A DNA stretch of 39,404 nucleotides from Bacillota bacterium (lineage in GTDB: Bacteria; Bacillota; Sulfobacillia; JAJZYS01; JAJYTV01): NCBI GenBank assembly GCA_021847575.1, contig JAJZQO010000020.1, forward strand, positions 1 to 39,404, written 5' to 3'. Below are positions 17,867 through 29,909 of the stretch, piece after piece; within the stretch, counting starts at the first letter, position 1; each line of letters begins with the position of its first letter. The translations under genes and the position numbers were made by a program. A model generated the notes under the pieces. That model saw nothing but the letters and a program-made list of their open reading frames with translations, had not been told where the DNA came from and made no database searches.

Positions 17867-19006
17867 TTGCGCTATCTGACCGCGGGAGAGTCCCATGGAC
17901 CAGCACTCGTCGGTATTCTCGAAGGCATCCCCGCAGGCCTCAGGCTCGCCGCTGCAGACGTCAACCGCGACCTCATGCGCCGACAGGCCGGTTACGGCCG
18001 GGGCCAGCGCATGAGCATCGAGCACGACGAGATCGAATGGCTCGCGGGGGTGCGTTTCGGCGAGACGCTTGGCTCGCCGATCGCCCTCATGATCCGCAAC
18101 CGCGACTTCTCGCGCTGGCAGGAGCGCATGGCGACCGAGGGCCCGGAGACCGGGCCGATCTTCACGCGCCCGCGGCCAGGTCACGCCGATCTGGCCGGCG
18201 CGCTCAAGTACGACAGGCGGGATGCCCGCGACATCCTCGAGCGGGCCTCCGCACGGGAGACGGCAACGCGCGTCGCGCTCGGGGCGATCGCCAAGGCCTT
18301 CCTGCGCCACTTCGGCATCGAGATCATCTCGCATGTCGTCGCGCTCGGCGATGTGACCGCGCCGCCGCCGCCGAGCCTGGACCTCGAGGCGATCGACGCG
18401 TCTTTGGTGCGCTGCGCCGATCCCGAGGCATCGGCGGCCATGGTGCAGGCGATCGATGCGGCCCGTCTCAAGGGCGACACCCTGGGGGGCGTCGTCGAGG
18501 TGCGGGCCGTTGGCGTTCCGGTTGGACTGGGCGCGCACGTGCACTGGGATCGCAAGCTCGATGGGCGCCTTGGCCAGGCGATGTTGTCCGTGCCGGCCAT
18601 CAAGGGACTCGAGATCGGGGCAGCCAACTGGTCTGCCGGCGTGCCGGGGTCCCAGGTGCACGACGAGATCGTCTACACGCCCGAACAGGGCTTCACGCGG
18701 CCTACCAACAGGGCGGGCGGCAGCGAGGGCGGCATCTCGAACGGGGAGCCCATCTGGGTCAGGGCGGCCATGAAGCCGCTGAGTTCCCTGCGCCGTCCGC
18801 TGAAGTCGGTCGACATGGCGACGAAGGAGCCGTTCCTGGCACAGGTCGAGCGGTCCGACATCACCGCCGTGCCGGCGGCGGGCGTCGTTCTGGAGGCGGT
18901 GATGGCGCTGGTGCTCGCCGAGCTCGTCCTCGAGAAGTTCGGCGGCGATTCCCTGGGGGATGTCGATCAGGCTTATCGCTACTTTCTCGGGCGGGTCCGT
19001 CCTTGA
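17867..19006 (+). CDS. aroC: Chorismate synthase
   Basis: A 379-residue enzyme that converts EPSP to chorismate using reduced FMN. Signature segments are RYLTAGESHGPALVGILEG, RPGHADLAGALKYD, ERASARETATRVALGAIAK (the usual RASARETA motif) and the C-terminal GGSEGGISNGEPI. The TTG at 17867 is supported by GAAGGAGGG about 9 bases upstream, overlapping the end of aroE. Its own stop overlaps the TTG start of the next gene (TTGA), so translation of the aro genes is coupled. Confidence 0.95.
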   Translation: MRYLTAGESHGPALVGILEGIPAGLRLAAADVNRDLMRRQAGYGRGQRMSIEHDEIEWLAGVRFGETLGSPIALMIRNRDFSRWQERMATEGPETGPIFTRPRPGHADLAGALKYDRRDARDILERASARETATRVALGAIAKAFLRHFGIEIISHVVALGDVTAPPPPSLDLEAIDASLVRCADPEASAAMVQAIDAARLKGDTLGGVVEVRAVGVPVGLGAHVHWDRKLDGRLGQAMLSVPAIKGLEIGAANWSAGVPGSQVHDEIVYTPEQGFTRPTNRAGGSEGGISNGEPIWVRAAMKPLSSLRRPLKSVDMATKEPFLAQVERSDITAVPAAGVVLEAVMALVLAELVLEKFGGDSLGDVDQAYRYFLGRVRP

Positions 19007-20529
19007 TCGTCGCGCTCGTCGGGCTGCCCGGCGCAGGGAAGAGCAGAATCGGCCGGGAGCTGGCGCAGCGCCTCGGCTACGCCTTCCTGGACACGGACCA
19101 GATGCTGCAAGAGCGGTTTGGCGCGCCGGCGGGCGAGCTGTACGAGCGACTCGGCGAATCCGCGTTCCGCGATGAGGAGACCCGCTCGCTGCGCGAGGCC
19201 GTGCAGGGCACCGACACGGTCGTCTCGACGGGCGGCGGCACGGTGCTGCGGCCAGACAACAGGCGCCTGCTGCGCGAGGTCCGCGTCCTGGGGCTGACCG
19301 CGCGGGATCCACAGTTGCTCTCGCGCCTGCGCGGCGGCAGGGGTAGACCCGTGCTGGCGCCGAATCCTGCCGATCGCCTGCAGGCCCTGCGGCGCGATCG
19401 GCTGCCGCTTTACGAAGAGGTCGCCGAGGCCTGGTTCTGGACCGAATCGGCCCCGTCCCGGGCGGTCGACCGCATCACGGACTTTCTTGCGCTGGGGCAC
19501 CTCGCGCCTGGCGTCTACTTCGGGCGCGGCGCCCGCCGCTTCGCCGGTTCGTTCACGGGCTTCGGGCGAAGCCTTCTGCTCACGCAGCCGCCACTAGCGG
19601 ACAGTTGGGCGAGGTCTCTCGTCGACAACCTGCGCTATGGCGAGCGCCAGGTGACGCTCGAAGTGGTGCCGGACGGCGAGGCGGCGAAGGACTTCGCGGT
19701 CTACCGGAATCTGCTCGGGCGCATGGCGTCGCTCGCCATGACGCGGGACGAGGCCGTGGTGGCCCTGGGCGGCGGGGCCGTGACCGACCTCGGCGGTTTC
19801 CTTGCCGCCAGCTACATGCGTGGCGTGCCGCTCGTGAACGTGCCGACCACGGTGGTGGGACAGGCCGACGCAGCACTCGGCGGCAAGACAGGACTCAACC
19901 TGCCGGAGGGCAAGAATCTGGTGGGAGCCTTCTACCCTGCGCGGGCCACGCTCATCGATCCTGAGACCTTGCGGACCCTGCCGCTCGCGGAGTTCCGCGA
20001 TGGCCTCGCCGAAGTCCTCAAGTGCGGTGTCGGCCTGGACGCGGAACTCTTCGAGGCGTGCGCCGGGTGGCGCCGTCCCCCTGCCGGACCGGCGCTCGAC
20101 TTCGCTCTGGCGCGTGCGGCCAAGGCGAAGCTCGGACTGGTCGCGGCGGATCCCAAGGAATCGGGCGTTCGCGCCAAGCTGAACCTCGGTCACACGGCGG
20201 GCCACGCTGTGGAAGCTGCAAGCGGTTACGCGCTATCCCACGGAAGCAGCGTGGCAATCGGGCTGTCGGCGGTGGTGCGGCTTGCGGAGCAGCGCTACGC
20301 CTTCAAACACGCCGATGCCGTGCTCGGGGTGCTGCGCCGCCTTGGCCTGCCGATGCACTACCAGGGCGACGCGTCGGAGCTCTGGGGCTACCTCGTCCAC
20401 GACAAGAAGAACGGCAGCCAGGGGTTCCGCATCGTCGTGCCACGGCGCATCGGCCAATGCGAGGTGGTAAGCGTCGATGAGGAGGAGATGCGGGAGTTGG
20501 CCGTCCTGGCCTGCACGCCGGTTGGATAG
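19003..20529 (+). CDS. aroKB: Fused shikimate kinase / 3-dehydroquinate synthase
   Basis: One 508-residue protein with two enzymes. Residues 1-165 are shikimate kinase: Walker A GLPGAGKS, the shikimate-binding DTDQML, GESAFRDEE and STGGGTVLRP, and a lid with RGRPVL. Residues about 170-508 are 3-dehydroquinate synthase: VPDGEAAKDF, ALGGGAVTDLGGFLAA, NVPTTVVGQADAALGGKTG, the metal-ligand region LNLGHTAGHAVE and HGSSVAIG. The pair catalyses the second and the fifth steps of the shikimate pathway. Similar fusions exist in some other bacteria (for example Thermotoga). The frame is open further upstream inside aroC, but the TTG at 19003, four bases overlapping the aroC stop, gives the natural kinase N-terminus LIVALVGLPG. 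Confidence 0.93.
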   Translation: MIVALVGLPGAGKSRIGRELAQRLGYAFLDTDQMLQERFGAPAGELYERLGESAFRDEETRSLREAVQGTDTVVSTGGGTVLRPDNRRLLREVRVLGLTARDPQLLSRLRGGRGRPVLAPNPADRLQALRRDRLPLYEEVAEAWFWTESAPSRAVDRITDFLALGHLAPGVYFGRGARRFAGSFTGFGRSLLLTQPPLADSWARSLVDNLRYGERQVTLEVVPDGEAAKDFAVYRNLLGRMASLAMTRDEAVVALGGGAVTDLGGFLAASYMRGVPLVNVPTTVVGQADAALGGKTGLNLPEGKNLVGAFYPARATLIDPETLRTLPLAEFRDGLAEVLKCGVGLDAELFEACAGWRRPPAGPALDFALARAAKAKLGLVAADPKESGVRAKLNLGHTAGHAVEAASGYALSHGSSVAIGLSAVVRLAEQRYAFKHADAVLGVLRRLGLPMHYQGDASELWGYLVHDKKNGSQGFRIVVPRRIGQCEVVSVDEEEMRELAVLACTPVG

Positions 20530-20586
20530 ATATACTTGGGTGGCGGCCCCCCCGAAAACATGCTAGACGACACGAAAACTATCCTA

Positions 20587-20615
20587 TTGACAGCGATCTC
20601 TCCACTTGTTATTTT
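20587..20615 (+). promoter_or_regulatory. Sigma-A type promoter of the tad operon
   Basis: A perfect TTGACA -35 (20587-20592) is separated by 17 bases from TATTTT (20610-20615). The surrounding 60 bases are clearly AT-richer than the genes. Transcription would start about 20622, just before the riboswitch. Confidence 0.75.
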
Positions 20616-20629
20616 CTATCTGCATAAGA

Positions 20630-20724
20630 ATACCCCGCGAAATGGCAAACGGCTCGAAAGGGTCGGACGCAAAGCCACGGGTCTAAGGCCGAAAAGGCTA
20701 TGATCGCCGGGTTGCCGAAGGGAG
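20630..20724 (+). promoter_or_regulatory. Cyclic-di-GMP class I (GEMM-I) riboswitch
   Basis: The core elements of the GEMM-I aptamer are in order: GGCAAAC (20644-20650), a 6-bp hairpin capped by GAAA (20650-20665), GGACGCAAAGCC (20665-20676), a second hairpin holding the tetraloop receptor CTAAG...TATG around a GAAA loop (about 20682-20703), and CGGGTTGCCGA. The first G of GGCAAAC, the position that contacts one guanine of the ligand, is G as in c-di-GMP binders, not A as in the cGAMP variants. It lies between a promoter and a terminator, upstream of the Flp pilin, so it is expected to govern the whole tad operon. Confidence 0.9.
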
Positions 20725-20733
20725 AAGGTTGGA

Positions 20734-20768
20734 CCTCCCAAGGCTGATTGGGAGGCCTTTCGCTTTTT
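20734..20768 (+). terminator. Riboswitch expression-platform terminator
   Basis: CCTCCCAA pairs with TTGGGAGG around GGCTGA (8 bp, perfect), followed by CCTTTCGCTTTTT. The left arm can also pair with upstream GGG and AGGT (20720-20729), giving an alternative hairpin that would stop the terminator forming. Because GGG 20720-20722 can also belong to the aptamer's closing helix with CCC 20633-20635, ligand binding should free the left arm and favour termination. The OFF logic is inferred. Confidence 0.75.
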
Positions 20769-20792
20769 CGGGGCGGGGAGAGGAGGGGCATC

Positions 20793-20975
20793 ATGTTGAT
20801 GATGGCTGCGGTCCGATTCTCCACGTTCCTTCGCCGAGTACGCGACCCAAGGGGCCAGAGCATGGTTGAGTATGCCCTCATCATCGCTCTTATCGCCGTC
20901 GTGGTTGTCGGTGCCGTCTTCGCGCTGGGCGGGAAGCTCGGCAGTGTCTTCGACAGTATCACGAACAGCCTCTAA
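20793..20975 (+). CDS. flp: Flp-type major pilin (Flp/Fap)
   Basis: A 60-residue type IVb prepilin. A short basic leader (RFSTFLRRVRDPRG) precedes the Flp motif GQSMVEYALIIALIAVVVVG: cleavage after Gly, then Glu at +5 and Tyr at +6, then a hydrophobic helix. The mature part ends KLGSVFDSITNSL. The ATG at 20793 has AGGAGG six bases upstream. It is the first gene after the riboswitch and terminator, as expected for the most abundant subunit. The peptidase that would cleave it is not in the window. Confidence 0.92.
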   Translation: MLMMAAVRFSTFLRRVRDPRGQSMVEYALIIALIAVVVVGAVFALGGKLGSVFDSITNSL

Positions 20976-21384
20976 GGCTGGGGGGACGCCGCGGCGGCCC
21001 GGGCTTCGCGACCGGAAGGGTCAGGCGGCGGTGGAGCTTGCCCTGATCCTTCCGGTTCTCGTCCTCCTGCTGCTCGGCATGCTGCAGGTGGGTGTCGTGC
21101 TGCAGGACTACCTGCAGTTGCAACAGGCGGTGGAGCAGGGGGCGCGGGTGGCGAGCCTGGGCCAGGGCGATGCGTCGGTCCTGCAGACGGTAGCCCAGTC
21201 GTCGCCCAGCCTCAACCCAAGCGCCTTGTCCGTAACCGTGTTGCCGGCTGCCGCCAATTGCCAGTCCGGAACCGACGTCACGGTGCAGGGGACGTACAGT
21301 GTCAGCGTGAGCATCCCCTTGCTCTCGTCCCTGCTCGGAAGCCAAGTACAGATCTCAAGCCAGTCGGTCATGTGTATGGAGTGA
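20944..21384 (+). CDS. tadE: TadE-family minor pilin
   Basis: A TadE-like pseudopilin of about 146 residues. A short basic leader ends in RKGQAAVELALILPVLVLLLLGMLQ, the prepilin-like cleavage site and helix, followed by DYLQLQQAVEQGARVASLG, which is typical for TadE, and a Ser/Val-rich extracellular domain with two Cys. GTG 20944 lies inside the 3' end of flp (32-base overlap) and is the last normal start before the motif; translation by coupling to flp is likely. A start at ATG 20866 would add an unusual Ser-rich stretch. Confidence 0.82.
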   Translation: MSSTVSRTASKAGGTPRRPGLRDRKGQAAVELALILPVLVLLLLGMLQVGVVLQDYLQLQQAVEQGARVASLGQGDASVLQTVAQSSPSLNPSALSVTVLPAAANCQSGTDVTVQGTYSVSVSIPLLSSLLGSQVQISSQSVMCME

Positions 21385-21390
21385 TCACTC

Positions 21391-22278
21391 ATGCCAAGGC
21401 TGCCTGCGGAGCGCGGTCAGGCCACGGTGCTGTTCGCACTCGCTGCGGTGGCTGTATTATCCGTCGCGTCGCTGTCGCTCGACGCCGGCCGGGCCTACGT
21501 CAAGACCCAGCAGTTGAAGACGGCGGCGGACGCGGCCGCGTTGGCGGGGGGGCAGCTGTTGCCCCAGGATCCAGCCGACGCCATGTCGACCGCCATCGCC
21601 ACGGCGGTCGCGAACGGCGTGCCTGCCGAGGACGTTCAGGCGCAAGTGAACCAGTCCGGCAACGTCATCACCGTGACCACGGACGGCGGCATCCCCTACT
21701 ACTTCGCATCCCTGTTCGGTGTGGACAGAGGCTCCTTCCAACTGACATCCGCAGTCGAGGTGGGTCCGATCTCGCAAGTGACAGGAGCCGTACCGCTCGG
21801 CGTCATCTGGAACGACTTCTCCTACGGCCACGCCTACCTGCTCAAGGACGGCGGAGGCTCGGGCAGTGACGGCAACTACGGCCCTCTCGCCCTCGGCGGC
21901 ACCGGTGGCAGCAATCTCAGCCAGAATCTGCAGAACGGCTACCAGACAGCATTGCAGGTTGGCGAGGACGTTGTGACGGAGCCGGGCAACAAGTTCGGGC
22001 CCACGATCCAGTCCGGCCTTTCGGCGCGGTTGGCGGCGGGCGACGGCTATACCTACGCGACGGTGCCGCTCTACTCCCCGGCGGTCGTGGACGTGCCGAT
22101 CATCGCGCCGCCGGCCAACGGCCGGACGGACACGACGATCCTCGGCTTCGCGGCGTTCTTCCTCCAGTCGGTGGACAGCCAGGGAGATGTCTGGGGCGTT
22201 TTTCTGAACGCCGTCGAGTCGGGTGAGTTCGGCGGCGGCGAGAGTTACGGCCTGCAGGCGGAGCGTCTCATCCAATGA
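21391..22278 (+). CDS. TadG-like pilus assembly protein
   Basis: A 295-residue protein with the TadG-type N-terminus: RGQATVLFALAAVAVLSVASLSLDAGRAYVKTQQLKTAADAAALAGGQLL, in which the hydrophobic segment follows a Gly-Gln cleavage-like site and the AADAAALAGG run is characteristic. The rest is an extracellular Gly/Ser/Thr-rich domain of about 240 residues without a recognised fold and without the von Willebrand domain found in longer TadG proteins. Its start is 6 bases after the tadE stop. It may be a minor pilin or anchor of the fibre. Confidence 0.82.
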   Translation: MPRLPAERGQATVLFALAAVAVLSVASLSLDAGRAYVKTQQLKTAADAAALAGGQLLPQDPADAMSTAIATAVANGVPAEDVQAQVNQSGNVITVTTDGGIPYYFASLFGVDRGSFQLTSAVEVGPISQVTGAVPLGVIWNDFSYGHAYLLKDGGGSGSDGNYGPLALGGTGGSNLSQNLQNGYQTALQVGEDVVTEPGNKFGPTIQSGLSARLAAGDGYTYATVPLYSPAVVDVPIIAPPANGRTDTTILGFAAFFLQSVDSQGDVWGVFLNAVESGEFGGGESYGLQAERLIQ

Positions 22279-22964
22279 CGCGGCGCAGGCTGCTTCGCGT
22301 GATGGTGCCCCTCCTGGTGGCGCTGGTCTTGACGCTGATTGTCGCGCGGGCCACGCAGAAACCGAGCCCGCGCCTCGTGCCGCTCGTGGTGGCCGCGACG
22401 GCGGTGCCGGCCGGTACAGAGCTGACCGGCGCAGACCTGAGGCTTCAGCGGGTCTCTCCGGCCGCCGTTCTGCCGGGGAGCCTGAGCAGCGAAGGCGCCG
22501 CGCAGGGCCAGGTCGCCAAGGTTTCCCTGACGGCCGGATCACCAGTCCTCGCAGACGAACTCGAAGCCGCATCCGAGGCCGGACTCGCCTACCAGATCCC
22601 GCGTGGCGACCGAGCCCTGACCGTGGCGGTCAACGGCGTCTCGGGCGTCGCCGGCAATCTGGCGACAGGGGATCACGTCGACGTGCTGCTCACCGTCGGG
22701 GCGCAGGCGTCGCAGGCTGGTCAGCCCGCGATCACCGCCCAGAGCACGGTGATCGTGCAGGACGTCGATGTGCTCTCGACCGGGCTCGCCGGGGCTGGCG
22801 GACCGAGCAACGGTTACGCGCTGATCACGCTGGCGGTGACGCCGCAGCAGGCGGCGACGATCTCGCTCGGCCAGCAGCAAGGCTCGATCCTGCTGCTCCT
22901 GCGCGCGCACGGCGATCAGACGCCAGGTGCTGTGGAAGTCCGGGTGGGAGGGATCGTGCCATGA
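22275..22964 (+). CDS. cpaB: Flp pilus assembly protein CpaB/RcpC
   Basis: A 229-residue protein with an N-terminal anchor (LLRVMVPLLVALVLTLIVA), then a SAF-type domain with VVAATAVPAGTELTGADL and LTAGSPVLADEL, and the RcpC segment RALTVAVNGVSGVAGNLATGDHVDVLL. In diderm bacteria CpaB partners the secretin; monoderm versions probably have a structural role outside the membrane. The ATG overlaps the upstream stop (ATGA), showing tight coupling. Confidence 0.9.
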   Translation: MTRRRLLRVMVPLLVALVLTLIVARATQKPSPRLVPLVVAATAVPAGTELTGADLRLQRVSPAAVLPGSLSSEGAAQGQVAKVSLTAGSPVLADELEAASEAGLAYQIPRGDRALTVAVNGVSGVAGNLATGDHVDVLLTVGAQASQAGQPAITAQSTVIVQDVDVLSTGLAGAGGPSNGYALITLAVTPQQAATISLGQQQGSILLLLRAHGDQTPGAVEVRVGGIVP

Positions 22965-24133
22965 GCGTGGAGCACGAGGCGCAGTTGCTGCTGATGGCAC
23001 CTGGGCAGCGGCGGGAGGCGCTGTCGGAAGTCCTCAAGGATGTGGGCAGGGTGCGAGAGGCCGACACGCCCGCCAGGGTGCGGACCCTGGCCCGCCAGGA
23101 GCGGCCCGACCTCGTCGTGCTGCACGTGGACGCCGATGCGCAGTGTCTCGGCCTCTGCGCGGAGCTCGACCAGTCGTACGGCGTCAGGGTGCTCGTCATC
23201 GGGCGGGAGGGTGGCATGGATGCCCTGCGTGCGGCCATGCAGGCGGGTGCGCGCGACTATCTTGTCGATCCTGTCCCACCGGGTGAATTGCGCGCCGCCG
23301 TGGCGCGCCTGGCGCAGGTCGAAAGGCGCACGCGGCGCGGCCACGTCGTAACCGTGTTCGGGACGAAAGGCGGCGTCGGCAAGTCGACGCTGGCGGCCAA
23401 TCTCGCTGTCGTGCTGGCGGATCGCCATCACCAGCGCGTCGCCCTGTGCGACCTGGACCTCGAGTTCGGCTGCGCCGCGACCCTCTACGGGCTCAGGCCG
23501 ACCGCGACGATCGTCGATGTCTGCCGCCACCCCGGAGCCATGACCCTCGCCACGATCGGTGAGGCGATGAGCCACTCGGACCACAGCCAGGTCGACATCC
23601 TTGCCGCTCCACCGACACCTGACCTCGCTGCGTTTGTCGACGGGGAAGGCAAGCGCGACCCCGAGCGCAACTATGTGCAGGAGATCCTGCGCACCCTGCG
23701 CACCGCCTACGACTGGGTGATCGTCGACACGGCCGTGGACTTCGGCGAGGGTGTCATCACCGCGCTCGACGAGGCGGAGCGCATCCTGTTCGTCACGACG
23801 CCGGACATCCCGGCGTTGCAGAACTCGGCCAAGGGACTCGATATCCTGCTTGAGCGCCTCGGCTACCCCCAGGAGAAGCTGGCGGTCGTGCTCAATCGCG
23901 GCAACGCGGCCATCGGCCTGATGGAGGACGAGATCTCCGATGCGCTCAATCATCCCATCCGCCATCTGCTGCCGTCGGAAGGCGACGTCGCCGTGCGCGC
24001 GGCCAACATTGGCATGCCGCTCGTGCTCCTCAGGGGCAGGTCACCCCTCGCCCGCGCCATCGGCAGGCTGGGCGGGGAACTCGTGCACGACCTCGAACGC
24101 CCGCGCGTGGCCGGCCTCAGCGCGGAAGGCTAG
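22961..24133 (+). CDS. tadZ: Pilus localisation ATPase CpaE/TadZ
   Basis: A 390-residue protein. Residues 1-125 look like a response-regulator receiver, but the phospho-acceptor position at the end of the third strand (DLVVLHVD) is His rather than Asp, so it is probably not phosphorylated. Residues 130-375 are a MinD/ParA-type ATPase: deviant Walker A FGTKGGVGKSTLAANLAV, CDLDLEFGC, and WVIVDTAVDF. TadZ proteins place the pilus machinery at a cell site. The ATG overlaps the cpaB stop (ATGA). Confidence 0.92.
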   Translation: MSVEHEAQLLLMAPGQRREALSEVLKDVGRVREADTPARVRTLARQERPDLVVLHVDADAQCLGLCAELDQSYGVRVLVIGREGGMDALRAAMQAGARDYLVDPVPPGELRAAVARLAQVERRTRRGHVVTVFGTKGGVGKSTLAANLAVVLADRHHQRVALCDLDLEFGCAATLYGLRPTATIVDVCRHPGAMTLATIGEAMSHSDHSQVDILAAPPTPDLAAFVDGEGKRDPERNYVQEILRTLRTAYDWVIVDTAVDFGEGVITALDEAERILFVTTPDIPALQNSAKGLDILLERLGYPQEKLAVVLNRGNAAIGLMEDEISDALNHPIRHLLPSEGDVAVRAANIGMPLVLLRGRSPLARAIGRLGGELVHDLERPRVAGLSAEG

Positions 24134-24146
24134 GGAGGGTTAGGAC

Positions 24147-25451
24147 TTGTCGCTGTACAAGCGCCTGCGCGGCACCGAGGAGGAGGGCCCGGCAACCGAG
24201 CTGGCGCCGGAGCCGAGCCGCGCGGAGCGGCTGCGGCTTCTGGTGCAGCAGCGCCTTGCGGCCGACATGGCCGAGGCCTCTCCGAACGGCGAGGCGTGGA
24301 AGGAGGAGGTGCGCGAGCGGATCTCGGCGCTGTTGCGCGACGAGCCGGATCTCGGCCCGCTCGAGCGCGAGACGCTTGTCGCGACGCTCTACGCGCAGGT
24401 CGTCGGCCTCGGACCGCTGCAGCCCCTGATCGAGGATCCGAGCATCAGCGAGATCATGGTCAACGGCTCTGCCCAGGTCTATGTCGAACGGGCCGGACGG
24501 CTGCAGCGCACATCGGTGCGCTTTCGCGATGACAAGGAGATCCTCGAGCTGATCGAGCGCATCGTGGCGCCGCTCGGCCGCCGCATCGACGAGTCGAGCC
24601 CGATGGTGGACGCCCGCCTGCGCGACGGCTCGCGCGTCAACGCCATCATTCCACCGCTCGCGTTGCGCGGCCCGTCGCTCACCATCCGCAAGTTCCCCGA
24701 GCGCGCCATGACCATGGAAGACCTCGAGCGTCTCGGCAGCGTGAGCGCCGGCATGGTCGACCTGCTCCGCGCCGCGGTGCGCGGCAGGCTGAACATCGTC
24801 GTCTCCGGCGGCACCGCCTCGGGCAAGACAACACTGCTCAACAGCCTTTCCGCCTTCATCCCCGACGGCGAGCGCATCGTCACGATCGAGGACGCCGCCG
24901 AACTCAGACTGCAGCAGGACCATGTCGTCTCGCTCGAGACGCGGCCCGCGAATCTGGAGGGACGCGGCGAAGTGAGCATCAGGCAGCTCGTGCGCAATGC
25001 CCTGCGCATGCGCCCCGACCGGATTGTCGTCGGCGAGGTGCGCGCAGGAGAGGCCCTCGACATGCTCCAGGCCATGAACACCGGTCACGACGGCTCCCTC
25101 ACCACGGTCCACGCCAACGCCCCGCGCGACGTCCTGTCGCGCATCGAGACGATGGTGCTCATGGCGGGCTTCGAATTGCCTGTGCGCGCCATCCGGGAGC
25201 AGATCGCCTCCGCCCTCGATCTCGTCGTGCACGCGCAGCGCATGCGCGACGGCTCGCGCCGCGTCACGCACATCACGGAGGTGCAGGGCATGGAGGGCGA
25301 AGTGATCGTGCTCCAGGACCTCTTCCGCTACCGGCCGGGCGACGGATTCGCGCCAACCGGACTGAGGCCGCGTTTCCTGGAACGTCTCGAACTCTACGGA
25401 CACACGGTCGACCCGCGCATCTTCCAGCCTGGTGCAGCCCGAGATGTTTAG
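24147..25451 (+). CDS. tadA: Tad pilus assembly ATPase TadA/CpaF
   Basis: A 434-residue secretion ATPase that powers pilin assembly, and in some systems retraction. Residues 1-130 form the N-terminal domain (PLIEDPSISEIMVNG). The motor has Walker A SGGTASGKTTLLN, the Asp box around IVTIEDAAELRL, Walker B RPDRIVVGEVRAGEALDML and the His box TGHDGSLTTVHANAP. The TTG start at 24147 has AGGGAGGG upstream, 13 bases after the tadZ stop. No separate retraction ATPase is present, as usual for Tad. Confidence 0.94.
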   Translation: MSLYKRLRGTEEEGPATELAPEPSRAERLRLLVQQRLAADMAEASPNGEAWKEEVRERISALLRDEPDLGPLERETLVATLYAQVVGLGPLQPLIEDPSISEIMVNGSAQVYVERAGRLQRTSVRFRDDKEILELIERIVAPLGRRIDESSPMVDARLRDGSRVNAIIPPLALRGPSLTIRKFPERAMTMEDLERLGSVSAGMVDLLRAAVRGRLNIVVSGGTASGKTTLLNSLSAFIPDGERIVTIEDAAELRLQQDHVVSLETRPANLEGRGEVSIRQLVRNALRMRPDRIVVGEVRAGEALDMLQAMNTGHDGSLTTVHANAPRDVLSRIETMVLMAGFELPVRAIREQIASALDLVVHAQRMRDGSRRVTHITEVQGMEGEVIVLQDLFRYRPGDGFAPTGLRPRFLERLELYGHTVDPRIFQPGAARDV

Positions 25452-26397
25452 GGAGATACTTCTGGCGCTCGTGTTCCTCTCCGCGTTCCTGGGCATCTGG
25501 GCCGTTTTGGCTCCGGACCCGCAGGTGCTGCGGCAGCTGCACAGGACCGTGCGGCGCGGCGCGGCCCAGGTGGTGGAGGAGGTGGCGCGGTCCGGGCCGG
25601 ATGAGTCACCGCGCAAAAGGCTGGCTGCCGCGCTCGAGTCCGTCGTACTGCACCGGGCTCTGGTGCAGCGTCTCGAGGCCCGGCTGCGCGCTGCGGACCT
25701 CGATCTGCGCGTCGGCGAGTTCATCATGCTCAGCCTTGGCCTCGGCCTGGTCGGTCTCGCGATTGCGGCGCTGCTCGGCGGCGGGGCCCTCTTCTTGCTC
25801 GCCCTCGGGTGCATGGCCCTGCCGACCCTGTTCCTCGCCACAAGGTCGCAGGAGCGGCACAAGCAGATCGCCCAGGCCCTGCCGGACGCTCTCGGCAGCA
25901 CGGCGAGCGCATTGCGGGCCGGCTTCTCCTTGCTGCAGGCCCTCGACGCTTGCGCAAGGCAGACCAAGGGGCCGCTCGGCCAGGAATTCGAGCGTCTGCT
26001 CGCCGAGACGCGCGTCGGCGTTCCCGTCGACGAGGCGCTCGAAAACCTCGCGGTGCGGGCAGGATCGGCCGATTTGAACCTGATGGTCACGGCGGTCCAG
26101 ATCCAGCGCCAGGTGGGTGGCAACCTGGCGGAGGTGCTCGACCGCATCCAGCAGACGATTCGCGAGCGGGTCCGCCTCCAGGCCGAGGTGCGCGCGCTCT
26201 CCGCCCAGGGCAGGATGTCTTCCCTGATCATCGGCCTCCTGCCGGTCGGCCTGCTCCTGCTGATGGGCCTCATCGCCCCGAGCTTCGTCGGCCCGATGTT
26301 TCAGCCTGGCATCGGGCGGACGCTGCTCGTCCTGGCAGCGTTGTTCGAGCTCCTGGGATTCTTCGTGCTGAGTCGCGTCGTGCGCATCGAGGTGTAG
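25432..26397 (+). CDS. tadB: Tad pilus inner-membrane platform protein TadB
   Basis: A 321-residue T2SS-F family protein with helices near residues 8-26, 100-135 and two at the C-terminus (SSLIIGLLPVGLLLLMGLI and TLLVLAALFELLGFFVL). The cytosolic part has ALPDALGSTASALRAGFSLLQALD and QVGGNLAEVLDRIQQTIRERVRLQAEVRALSAQGRMS, both conserved in TadB. It starts at GTG 25432, overlapping tadA, or at ATG 25444. With TadC it forms the platform driven by TadA. Confidence 0.92.
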   Translation: MQPEMFREILLALVFLSAFLGIWAVLAPDPQVLRQLHRTVRRGAAQVVEEVARSGPDESPRKRLAAALESVVLHRALVQRLEARLRAADLDLRVGEFIMLSLGLGLVGLAIAALLGGGALFLLALGCMALPTLFLATRSQERHKQIAQALPDALGSTASALRAGFSLLQALDACARQTKGPLGQEFERLLAETRVGVPVDEALENLAVRAGSADLNLMVTAVQIQRQVGGNLAEVLDRIQQTIRERVRLQAEVRALSAQGRMSSLIIGLLPVGLLLLMGLIAPSFVGPMFQPGIGRTLLVLAALFELLGFFVLSRVVRIEV

Positions 26398-26400
26398 GTC

Positions 26401-27288
26401 ATGCAGATCATCGCCATCGTGCTCGCCCTGGTCCTCGGCTACAGCCTCGGACTCTACATCGTCGCGCCGGGCGCCGTGCAGGAACTCGAGCGGCAGCAAC
26501 TGGAGCGCGTCGTGCGCCATCGCGGTGGCCAGACATCGGCCCAGGCGCTCGAGCGCGGCTTCGCCGACCGCTTCCTGCGCCCGATCGTCGACGAAGTCTC
26601 GCAGACGCTGCTGCGCCACCTGCCCCAGCGCCAGGGCGACATCCTGCGGCGCCGACTCGAGCGCGCCGGCAACCCGACCAGTCCCGGCGTGTTGCTCGCA
26701 AGCCGTTTCCTGCTCGGCATCGTCGGCATCCTGCCGGCCCTCTTCGGCGGCATCGCCATCCTGATCGGTCTCGCCCTCGCCCTGCTGGGCTGGCGCATCC
26801 CGGACTTCTGGCTCGCGCGGCGGGCCAGCATGCGGCAGCAGGCGATGCTGCGTCATCTGCCGGACGTGATGGACCTGCTCTCGGTCTCCGTGGAGGCGGG
26901 CCTCGGCTTCGACGCGGCCCTGGCGCGGGTCACGGGGCGCTTCGGCGAGCCGGTGGCCGGAGAATTCGGACGTCTCCTGCGGGAACTGCAACTGGGCAGG
27001 CCACGGGTCGAGGCGCTCAGGGACCTCGCGCGCCGCCTCGACCTGCCGGATCTCGACGCGTTCGTCAGCGCCGTCGTGCAGGCCGACGAACTGGGCGTCG
27101 GCATCGCGTCGGTACTGCGCGCGCAGAGCGAGCAGATACGCGCCCTAAGGCGCCAGCGGGCTCAGGAGGCCGCGCTCAAGGTGCCGATCAAGATGCTCTT
27201 TCCGCTGATCTTCCTGATCTTCCCGGCCATGTTCATCGTGCTGCTGGGTCCGGCCGTGCTCTCGTTCGTCCAAGCCCTGCGTCACTGA
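26401..27288 (+). CDS. tadC: Tad pilus inner-membrane platform protein TadC
   Basis: A 295-residue T2SS-F family protein, paralogous to TadB: an N-terminal helix (IIAIVLALVLGYSLGLYIVA), a middle pair of helices around GIVGILPALFGGIAILIGLALALLG, the F-domain MLRHLPDVMDLLSVSVEAGLGFDAALARV, and QEAALKVPIKMLFPLIFLIFPAMFIVLLGP at the end. Its start is 3 bases after the tadB stop. It is the last gene of the pilus operon and overlaps the 3' end of the convergent radical SAM gene by 7 bases. Confidence 0.93.
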   Translation: MQIIAIVLALVLGYSLGLYIVAPGAVQELERQQLERVVRHRGGQTSAQALERGFADRFLRPIVDEVSQTLLRHLPQRQGDILRRRLERAGNPTSPGVLLASRFLLGIVGILPALFGGIAILIGLALALLGWRIPDFWLARRASMRQQAMLRHLPDVMDLLSVSVEAGLGFDAALARVTGRFGEPVAGEFGRLLRELQLGRPRVEALRDLARRLDLPDLDAFVSAVVQADELGVGIASVLRAQSEQIRALRRQRAQEAALKVPIKMLFPLIFLIFPAMFIVLLGPAVLSFVQALRH

Positions 27289-28400
27289 GCGTCGTAGCCC
27301 ACGCCGAGCGGACAGGCGGGATCGGGAGCGAAGGGATCGCCGAAACTCGCGAACGCCCGCGCGCGTGAGCCGCCGCAGATCGCGCGGTAGTCGCATTCGC
27401 CGCAGCGGCCGTGCAGGTCGCGGCGGCGGATCTGCTGCAGGAGCGGATGCTCGCGGTAGACGGAAACGATGTCGTCCTGGCGGACGCTGCCGAGTTCGAG
27501 CGGCAGGAAACCGCCGGGCGAAATCGCACCGTCGTGCGCTATGAAGATGATGCCGTCGCCGTCGAGCGTACCGCGCGTGCCCATGCGCACCGGGCCGGGC
27601 GGCGGGCCCGCGAGGGTCTCGAGTCGCGAGCTGAGGCGCTGGTGCAGCGCTTCTCCGAACTGGCCCCTTTCGCGCTCGCGCAGGACCCTGCGCACAAACG
27701 GAGCCTCTACCGTGCGGACGAGCACGTCATAGCGCGACGCGTCGAGCAGGAAGTGGCAGACGTCGTCGTGTTCTGCGGGGCTCAGGGCGTCGCTCCCGCC
27801 CGCGCGGCCGGTGACGATCAGGAAGAACACCTCCCAGATCGGCACTCCCTCGCTTATGAGGAGACTGGCGATGTCGGGCAGGGTCTCGGCGGTGGAGCGC
27901 ATGACGACGGTGTTGATCTGGACCTTGAGGCCGACTCTGAGCGCCGCCCGCGTTGCGGCGAGCGTGAGGTCGTACGTGCCGGGGACGCCGCGGATACTGT
28001 CATGGACCTCGCGCGGGGCGTCCAGACTCAGCGAGATGGACTGGACGCCGGCATCCTTGAGCCGCTGCAGCATCGCCTCGTCGAGCAGCGGGGTGGCTGC
28101 GGGCGCTGCCGCGACGTGCAGGCCGAGGCGCGCGGCCTCGCCGATCAGCTCGAAGATGTCGTCGCGCAGGATGAGGTCGCCGCCCGTCAGGACGACAACC
28201 GGCGGCGGGTCGCCGAAGGCGCGGATGCGCCGCAACAGCTGAAGCCCTTCTTCGGTGCTGAGCTGACCGGGCAACGCACTTGGCTGCGACGTGGCGCGGC
28301 AGTGGCGGCAGGCGAGCAGGCAGGCCTTCGTCGTCTCCCAAAACACGAGCATCGGCCGCGCGCTGAAGGGCGACCGGATCTCTTGCTGCTGTACGGACAT
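27282..28400 (-). CDS. Radical SAM/SPASM domain protein (TIGR04053-like)
   Basis: A 372-residue radical SAM enzyme. The [4Fe-4S] motif C-x3-C-x2-C is seen as CLLACRHC near residue 30, VVLTGGDLILR follows, and the C-terminal SPASM-type region has C-G-E-C, AICGG and PDPAC, so more iron-sulfur clusters are likely. The sequence pattern (FWETTKACLLACRHCRA, GDGIIFIAHDGAISPGGFLPLELGSVR) resembles the TIGR04053 family of Bacillota, which I recall without an assigned reaction. No obvious peptide substrate gene is nearby. The start is ATG 28400 with GGGGG about nine bases upstream; GTG 28406 is also possible. It is tail-to-tail with tadC and divergent from the MFS gene. Confidence 0.85.
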   Translation of the reverse strand: MSVQQQEIRSPFSARPMLVFWETTKACLLACRHCRATSQPSALPGQLSTEEGLQLLRRIRAFGDPPPVVVLTGGDLILRDDIFELIGEAARLGLHVAAAPAATPLLDEAMLQRLKDAGVQSISLSLDAPREVHDSIRGVPGTYDLTLAATRAALRVGLKVQINTVVMRSTAETLPDIASLLISEGVPIWEVFFLIVTGRAGGSDALSPAEHDDVCHFLLDASRYDVLVRTVEAPFVRRVLRERERGQFGEALHQRLSSRLETLAGPPPGPVRMGTRGTLDGDGIIFIAHDGAISPGGFLPLELGSVRQDDIVSVYREHPLLQQIRRRDLHGRCGECDYRAICGGSRARAFASFGDPFAPDPACPLGVGYDAQ

Positions 28401-28583
28401 GGACACATACCCCCACGTGGTGGCGAAACTGCCCCGAAGACTAGCACTTCCAGCCGTGTTTCGCGAGGCTCATTCGGTCCCACCCGGCGCGCTGGCGCAT
28501 CTGGTCGGATTTGGGCAGAATGGCGAACGGAAAGGAAATCCGGCATCTGCGTGCGAAATTGGTCGCGGCGCATGAACCGGTTT

Positions 28584-28601
28584 GGAGGGATCCCTTTTTT
28601 G
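28584..28601 (+). promoter_or_regulatory. Ribosome binding site and TTG start of the MFS gene
   Basis: GGAGGG (28584-28589) lies nine bases before TTG 28599. The in-frame ATG at 28572 has no purine-rich site upstream. This favours the shorter protein. Confidence 0.5.
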
Positions 28602-29909
28602 TCACTCTCGCAGCGGGGGCTCTCAGCCACTCTCCTCCTCGCCATCTTTCTGGGTGCGGCCGACCTGAGTCTGCTCGCACCCGGTCTTCTGCCGATCGCG
28701 CAGGCCTTTCACGTGCCCCTGGCCGCTGCGTCGTGGGTCGTTACGCTCTACGCCATCGTCTTCGGCGCTGCGCTGCCGGTTCTGTTCCGTGTGCAGGGCC
28801 GCTACGGCCCGCGCCGCATGTTCGCCGCGGGTGGGCTGCTGTTCGCGGCCGGGTCCTTCCTGGCGGGATACAGCGGCGGCTTGCTTATTCTGCTGCTCGG
28901 CCGGGGACTGCAAGCCTTGGCAGCGTCGGCGCTGGTGCCCCTGGCGGGCCAGCAGGTCGCCAAGGCGTTCGCGCCGGAAGGGCACGGGCTGCCGCGAGGG
29001 GCTCTGGGCGCCTGGTACGGCATTTCGGCGGTCGTGGCCGCGCCCCTCGGCGGCATCGTCGTGGCCGATTTCGGCTGGCGCTGGCTCTTCCTGGCGACGG
29101 GACCCTTGGGATTGGCCGTCGCGGTGCTGGCAGTCCTCTTCGTAACCCCGGAAACCGGTCCGTCGGACGAGCGGCCCGACATCCATGGCGCGGTGCTCAT
29201 GGCCCTTGCGGTCGCCGCCCTTCTGCTCGGCGTCGAGATGCTGTACCGCCACGTGCTGCCGCTCGGCTGGGCAAGCCTCGTCTTCGGCGTACTGCTCGTG
29301 CCGAATCTCGTTTTGTGGGAGCGCGCGGCCGCGCAGCCCATCTTCCGTGGCGACGGCCATCTCGTCTTTGTCTACCTGCTCGGCAGCCTGGGCGCCGCCG
29401 CCACGGCCCTGGCGCTCTTCGTGCCGCTCTACGCCATCGACGCCCTGCGCCTGTCCGAAGCGACCTCCGGCCTGGCCTTGCTGCCCATGGCCTTGGGCAT
29501 GGCGGCGACAGCCTATTACGGCGGCGCTCTGACCCGCAGGCTGGCCCCCAGGTTCCTGCTCGCGGCAGGGTTTCTTGGCATGGCTTGCGGGGTGGCGGCC
29601 GTGGCTAACTTCCAGGGACTTCCCGGCGCGATCGCCGGACTTTTGCTCGTCGGAGGCGGTGTGGGCCTTACTATGGGAGCGCCGTTGCAGTATCTTGTGT
29701 TGGGACTCGCGCCTAAGGCGCAGGCCGGTCCGGCTCGGACGCTCCTGGGGACGTTCAGGGCACTTGGCTTGGCAATCGGACCAGTGGTGTATGCGGGCAT
29801 GCTGCCGGCTTTCACCAGCCTGTTCCTGGCCGCAGGGATCATCGCGTTCCTCGGCTTGGCTGCGACGCTCCCGCTGTGGGGGATGCGGCCGCGCCCCAAT
29901 CCGGTCTGA
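28599..29909 (+). CDS. Major facilitator superfamily transporter
   Basis: A membrane protein of 436 residues (445 from ATG 28572) with about 12 hydrophobic spans. The first spans and loop read as an H+ antiporter-type MFS: ADLSLLAPGLLPIAQAFHVP, then the loop-2/3 motif RVQGRYGPRRMFAAGGLLF, and the antiporter-like GLQALAASALVPLAG. A second half repeats after a short central loop. Drug or metabolite export is likely, but the substrate is unknown. It diverges from the radical SAM gene, a pairing that could mean export of a product, though the evidence for this is only position. Confidence 0.85.
   Translation: MSLSQRGLSATLLLAIFLGAADLSLLAPGLLPIAQAFHVPLAAASWVVTLYAIVFGAALPVLFRVQGRYGPRRMFAAGGLLFAAGSFLAGYSGGLLILLLGRGLQALAASALVPLAGQQVAKAFAPEGHGLPRGALGAWYGISAVVAAPLGGIVVADFGWRWLFLATGPLGLAVAVLAVLFVTPETGPSDERPDIHGAVLMALAVAALLLGVEMLYRHVLPLGWASLVFGVLLVPNLVLWERAAAQPIFRGDGHLVFVYLLGSLGAAATALALFVPLYAIDALRLSEATSGLALLPMALGMAATAYYGGALTRRLAPRFLLAAGFLGMACGVAAVANFQGLPGAIAGLLLVGGGVGLTMGAPLQYLVLGLAPKAQAGPARTLLGTFRALGLAIGPVVYAGMLPAFTSLFLAAGIIAFLGLAATLPLWGMRPRPNPV

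Follow-up and report, generated by a model that had tools for sequence, protein, structure and literature searches.

The leader of the flp-tad operon in the analyzed window (the whole stretch of DNA, 39,404 nucleotides) probably contains a transcriptional c-di-GMP-I riboswitch that works as an OFF switch. The riboswitch class of the element at 20634–20719, GEMM-I, is already well known, and so is the type of mechanism; the tad/flp operon as its target is apparently unreported. No paper linking a c-di-GMP riboswitch with tad/flp regulation was found in the literature searched, where an earlier mention may have been missed. The features of the leader and of the operon are listed below; the strands of the leader are named P, A, T, and H according to PMC9262584.

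20587–20615, + strand: sigma-70-like promoter TTGACA-N17-TATTTT
20633–20635, + strand: strand P, CCC, the 5' half of the closing helix P1, pairing with GGG 20720–20722
20634–20719, + strand: c-di-GMP-I (GEMM-I) aptamer with a GAAA tetraloop (RF01051)
20720–20724, + strand: strand A, GGGAG, common to P1 and the antiterminator, read from the sequence
20720–20739, + strand: antiterminator hairpin GGGAG/CUCCC (A:T), −6.1 kcal/mol
20734–20768, + strand: intrinsic-terminator-like hairpin (T:H) with a U-rich tail, −13.2 kcal/mol, kept in the family
20735–20739, + strand: strand T, CUCCC, common to the antiterminator and the 5' arm of the terminator
20750–20754, + strand: strand H, GGGAG, the 3' side of the terminator
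20782–20788, + strand: Shine–Dalgarno-like GGAGGGG before flp, read from the sequence
20793–20975, + strand: flp, Flp/Fap pilin of 60 aa with the processing motif G|QSMVEYALI (PF04964)
20866–21384, + strand: TadE-like gene (PF07811); ORF limits, the true start lies downstream and is uncertain
21391–22278, + strand: TadE/G-like gene (PF13400; TIGR03816 below the cut-off)
22275–22964, + strand: rcpC/cpaB-like gene (PF16976, PF08666)
22964–24133, + strand: tadZ/cpaE-like gene, receiver-like and ParA/MinD ATPase (PF13614, PF00072), start uncertain
24147–25451, + strand: tadA/cpaF ATPase gene (PF00437, E 8e-67)
25432–26397, + strand: tadB gene (PF00482)
26401–27288, + strand: tadC gene (PF00482)

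The GEMM-I aptamer proposed in the initial annotation was recovered in the RF01051 run as a full-length match (model positions 1–87 of 87) with 82.5 bits against a gathering threshold of 35 and an E-value of 6.2e-15; no other Rfam match in the 39-kb window exceeded its threshold. The GEMM-I core motifs, namely GGCAAAC, the GAAA tetraloop with its receptor, ACGCAAAGCC, and UGCCGAA, were present in the alignment to the RF01051 model. We take G20645 to be G20 of Vc2 and C20715 to be C92, and with this presumed numbering the register of strand P (CCC 20633–20635) agrees. The putative position 20, assigned in this way, is G, as in c-di-GMP-type aptamers, and not A, as in cGAMP-type ones. Both the GGC containing the putative G20 and the CC containing the putative C92 were invariant in 39 of 39 aligned aptamers. 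The GEMM-I structure modelled with cGAMP was that of a G20A mutant (PMC6274999). Since the GGC with the putative G20 is kept in every aligned copy, cGAMP was rejected as the ligand, and the aptamer sequence points to c-di-GMP as the predicted one, which the copy at 20634–20719 would be expected to bind.

The genome of the host (2.86 Mb in 137 contigs) contained 11 GGDEF and 9 EAL matches, and c-di-GMP signalling is therefore present. Three GEMM-I copies, including that of the flp leader, were found in this genome. The other two (L002 1501–1586, − strand, and L003 187–272, + strand) precede secreted proteins, one of which has a DUF5666 match while the other is unassigned.

The operon of eight tad genes with flp in the first position was confirmed by Pfam matches from flp through tadC, up to 27288; the coordinates and the gene count of the initial annotation were right. 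The PF04964 match of flp (43.7 bits) was scored on a longer ORF, while the start codon ATG 20793 and the processing motif were read from the sequence. A whole-genome search gave no PF00263 (secretin) match, and a single prepilin peptidase match was located on another contig. The missing secretin and the distant prepilin peptidase fit a monoderm Tad system, as had been suggested from the window. Two further ORFs of the window were noted. The 830-aa ORF 18037–20529 encodes fused shikimate kinase and 3-dehydroquinate synthase domains, with no Pfam family match for its first 320 residues; in the 832-aa ORF 27411–29909, an MFS transporter domain was found only at residues 408–791, and the first 400 residues had no match.

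In the 1 kb at 20300–21300, where shuffled sequences would be expected to give 0.2 promoter-like sites, only the promoter that had been proposed for the operon was seen. Its TTGACA element was invariant or nearly so among eight aligned leaders of the family, and CCCC at strand P was invariant in all eight. Two hairpins, GGGAG 20720–20724 with CUCCC 20735–20739 and CCUCCCAA (20734–20741) with UUGGGAGG (20748–20755), are both encoded downstream of the aptamer and exclude each other, in agreement with the initial annotation. The terminator hairpin was more stable than shuffled sequences (z −3.5), while the antiterminator hairpin of the window, taken alone, was no better than shuffles (z 0.1). The last U run, U5 at 20764–20768, begins 8 nt past the 8-bp terminator stem; therefore, the terminator would have the textbook form only if AAGG/CCUU pairing lengthened the stem. 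Such an extension, with a bulge, gives −15.0 kcal/mol and closes most of the gap to the U run. The U tract adjoins the terminator stem in the leaders of the sister genus (GGCUUUUUG, GGAUUUUUG). Termination itself at this site of the flp leader is predicted.

Some other elements of the leader were observed. GAGAAGGU is complementary to GCUUUUUC (20722–20729 and 20762–20769); this pairing can draw the U run into a long lower terminator stem and is kept in several sister leaders. A G-rich stretch, GGGGCGGGGAGAGGAGGGG, occupies 20770–20788 and includes the Shine–Dalgarno sequence; (TT)CGGGGCGGGG is kept across most leaders of the family. This G-rich stretch could fold into a G-quadruplex that covers the ribosome-binding site.

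The proposed mechanism is as follows. Transcription would start a few bases past 20615. With c-di-GMP bound, GGG 20720–20722 of strand A would be held in P1 against CCC 20633–20635 of strand P, which would leave CUCCC of strand T free for GGGAG of strand H; the terminator would form and RNA polymerase would stop before flp. With no ligand, GGGAG of strand A would leave P1 and capture CUCCC, the terminator would be delayed, and flp-tad would be read through.

In the window, the strands follow the order P-A-T-H, with strand A common to P1 and the antiterminator and strand T common to the antiterminator and the terminator. The pairs of P1, antiterminator, and terminator were kept in all eight leaders of the family, except that G006 lost one antiterminator and one terminator pair. 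Covariation inside the family was slight because strands A and T are nearly invariant there. Leaders G012–G014, belonging to another family of the same order, had different sequences with the same P-A-T-H layout, and their A:T helix carried one A-U to G-C exchange. The antiterminator of the sister genus is longer (GGGAAGGCU/AGCCUCCC) and better than 98% of shuffles; the best antiterminator, that of G006 (−13.9 kcal/mol), exceeded 98% of them. The A:T complementarity per leader was modest, with shuffle fractions of 0.02–0.14 in the two near families, and the same A:T pairing was not seen in some distant flp leaders (G024, G027, and G048).

Equilibrium profiles were calculated by transcript length, the ligand being imitated by a bonus of 8 kcal/mol on one pair, favouring P1. 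RNAfold did not recover the tertiary fold of the aptamer and preferred another fold of the free aptamer; therefore, the energies that involve the aptamer are indicative only. With no ligand, the A:T pairing reached 0.94 until strand H emerged; with the P1 bonus, it was about 0 where strand H was completed. After strand H was complete, the terminator dominated with or without ligand. An A:T pairing of 0.94 before strand H and a dominant terminator after it mean that the switch would be kinetic, as for the Cd1 riboswitch of Clostridioides difficile. The prediction that the ligand turns the operon off was supported: OFF is the best-supported direction, given the Cd1-like P-A-T-H layout that is kept throughout the family and recurs in a second one, and it stays a prediction.

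An opposite, ON output is unlikely. Here, the lower stem of the terminator would use the 3' end of the aptamer (CGAAGG 20716–20721 with CCUUUCG 20756–20762), and the ligand would prevent termination; indeed, the hairpin extended from the aptamer 3' end and ending immediately before CUUUUUC was the best terminator-like candidate of the window (−19.9 kcal/mol). However, the CGAAGG/CCUUUCG extension gave −15.4 kcal/mol versus −15.0 kcal/mol for the OFF-compatible AAGG/CCUU, so no energy is gained, and the sister leaders, with CCUAUCAC or similar at this place, cannot form the CGAAGG/CCUUUCG stem. The strand order also argues against it: strand T lies downstream of strand A in the window, but precedes it in the ON switch pilM (PMC9262584). 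Control of translation, in which CCUCCC of strand T, resembling an anti-Shine–Dalgarno sequence, pairs with the G-rich 20770–20788 and strand A or H sets its availability, is still less probable. Strand T has two complements in the Shine–Dalgarno region, GGGAG and GGAGG, and the U run is not next to the stem in the genus of the window; nevertheless, the U tract of the sister genus does adjoin it, complementarity of CCUCC to any Shine–Dalgarno sequence is generic, and T:H was the dominant pairing of the equilibrium profile once strand H was made.

The least probable reading, which we consider very improbable, is that of a real aptamer on which tad expression does not ordinarily depend, owing to constitutive termination or another promoter. 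The terminator does win at equilibrium irrespective of ligand, but the promoter, aptamer, and platform before flp are conserved across the family, the GEMM-I/flp pair is conserved across the class, and 20300–21300 holds no second promoter-like site before flp. The transcriptional OFF switch is thus the preferred reading, and we infer the OFF direction for the flp leader.

The proposed search for GEMM-I before flp in related genomes was positive. Among 61 genomes of the class, RF01051 was found in 58 (203 matches) and PF04964 in 59. In these genomes, 22 GEMM-I copies preceded a same-strand flp by at most a few hundred bases, and one more pair came from 41 further loci, nearly all of them flp upstream regions. 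This gives 23 pairs in 22 genomes of 12 families, two of the counted leaders (G003 and G004) being identical. Chance placement was rejected: about 0.04 same-strand pairs within 600 nt are expected by a hand calculation from 203 GEMM-I copies and about 92 flp places in the 61 genomes. All six genomes of the window's genus had the pair. Most GEMM-I copies in the class have no flp next to them, and no GEMM-I was found in the flp regions checked in Symbiobacterium-like and Thermaerobacter-like genomes. Tandem GEMM-I copies about 75–120 nt apart were observed in relatives (G023:C16:290-583, G015:C56:58181-58472, and G030:C69:52907-53158), as was a divergent pair (G031:C70:17266-17601) with flp behind one of its arms.

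A second sample consisted of 80 named loci picked only by TadA similarity; in four of them, all from Bacillota, GEMM-I was present upstream of tad. It stands directly before flp, whose identity was read from the sequence, in Neobacillus muris and Fredinandcohnia onubensis. The 23 pairs of the class together with the named Bacillota loci mean that the arrangement is real and recurrent. In two Clostridia MAGs (L090 4265–4352 and L100 185–275), GEMM-I upstream of tad precedes not flp but a prepilin-peptidase-like frame, also identified from its sequence.

The closest known system is Cd1 (Cdi-1-3), a c-di-GMP-I riboswitch before flgB of C. difficile and a proven OFF switch (PMC9262584, PMC6200980). 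In Cd1, strand A pairs with strand P of the aptamer or with strand T in the antiterminator, strand T pairs with strand H in the terminator, and the antiterminator is only transiently stable (PMC9262584). Cd1 and the element of the window share the aptamer class, the P-A-T-H order, a strand A common to P1 and the antiterminator, and a transcription terminator (predicted in the window) before a surface-appendage operon. They differ in the target, flagellum in Cd1 and Tad/Flp pilus in the window, and in architecture: the spacing between aptamer and terminator is longer in Cd1, whereas the window has a short platform and a weak 5-bp antiterminator. Cdi-2-4 before pilA1 of C. difficile is likewise a c-di-GMP riboswitch acting on transcription of a type IV pilin in a monoderm (PMC6200980); unlike the element of the window, it has a class II aptamer and an ON output, and its target is a type IV pilus not of the Tad type. 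The GEMM-Ib riboswitches of Geobacter have the GEMM-I fold and pilus-related targets in common with the window, and deletion of the cGAMP synthase deprives their downstream genes of expression (PMC6456294, PMC9262584). In contrast to the window, their ligand is cGAMP, their host is diderm, and they are ON switches; the aptamer of the window has the GGC of c-di-GMP-type aptamers instead. Tad pili of Caulobacter also respond to c-di-GMP, a high level of which leads to retraction; there, c-di-GMP acts on pilus activity, with the amount of pilin unchanged and no riboswitch involved (PMC6581867).

The initial annotation regarded an OFF switch for an adhesion pilus as unexpected, which was overstated. 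Most class I switches of C. difficile turn expression off, among them one that precedes a putative adhesin (a single downstream gene was upregulated), whereas the class II switch before pilA1 is ON (PMC6200980). The Tad pilus activity of Caulobacter rises at moderate c-di-GMP levels and falls at high ones (PMC6581867). With the predominance of OFF among the class I switches of C. difficile and the retraction of Caulobacter Tad pili at high c-di-GMP, an OFF switch on Tad is compatible with known biology.

Such a switch suggests that the Tad pilus belongs to the low-c-di-GMP phase. More broadly, GEMM-I OFF switches may act directly on Tad operons throughout this class of Bacillota-like monoderms, and separately also in Bacillaceae and in Clostridia. 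The Tad pilus of these bacteria would then serve while c-di-GMP is low, in early contact, surface motility, or DNA uptake, rather than as an adhesin of biofilms; we give this generalization slightly less than an even chance. Such a switch would mean that c-di-GMP acts on Tad pilus transcription directly, with no protein in between, in many uncultured lineages as well as in named, testable Bacillaceae, N. muris and F. onubensis. The timing of Tad pilus use by monoderms, at low versus high c-di-GMP, would become open to experiment.
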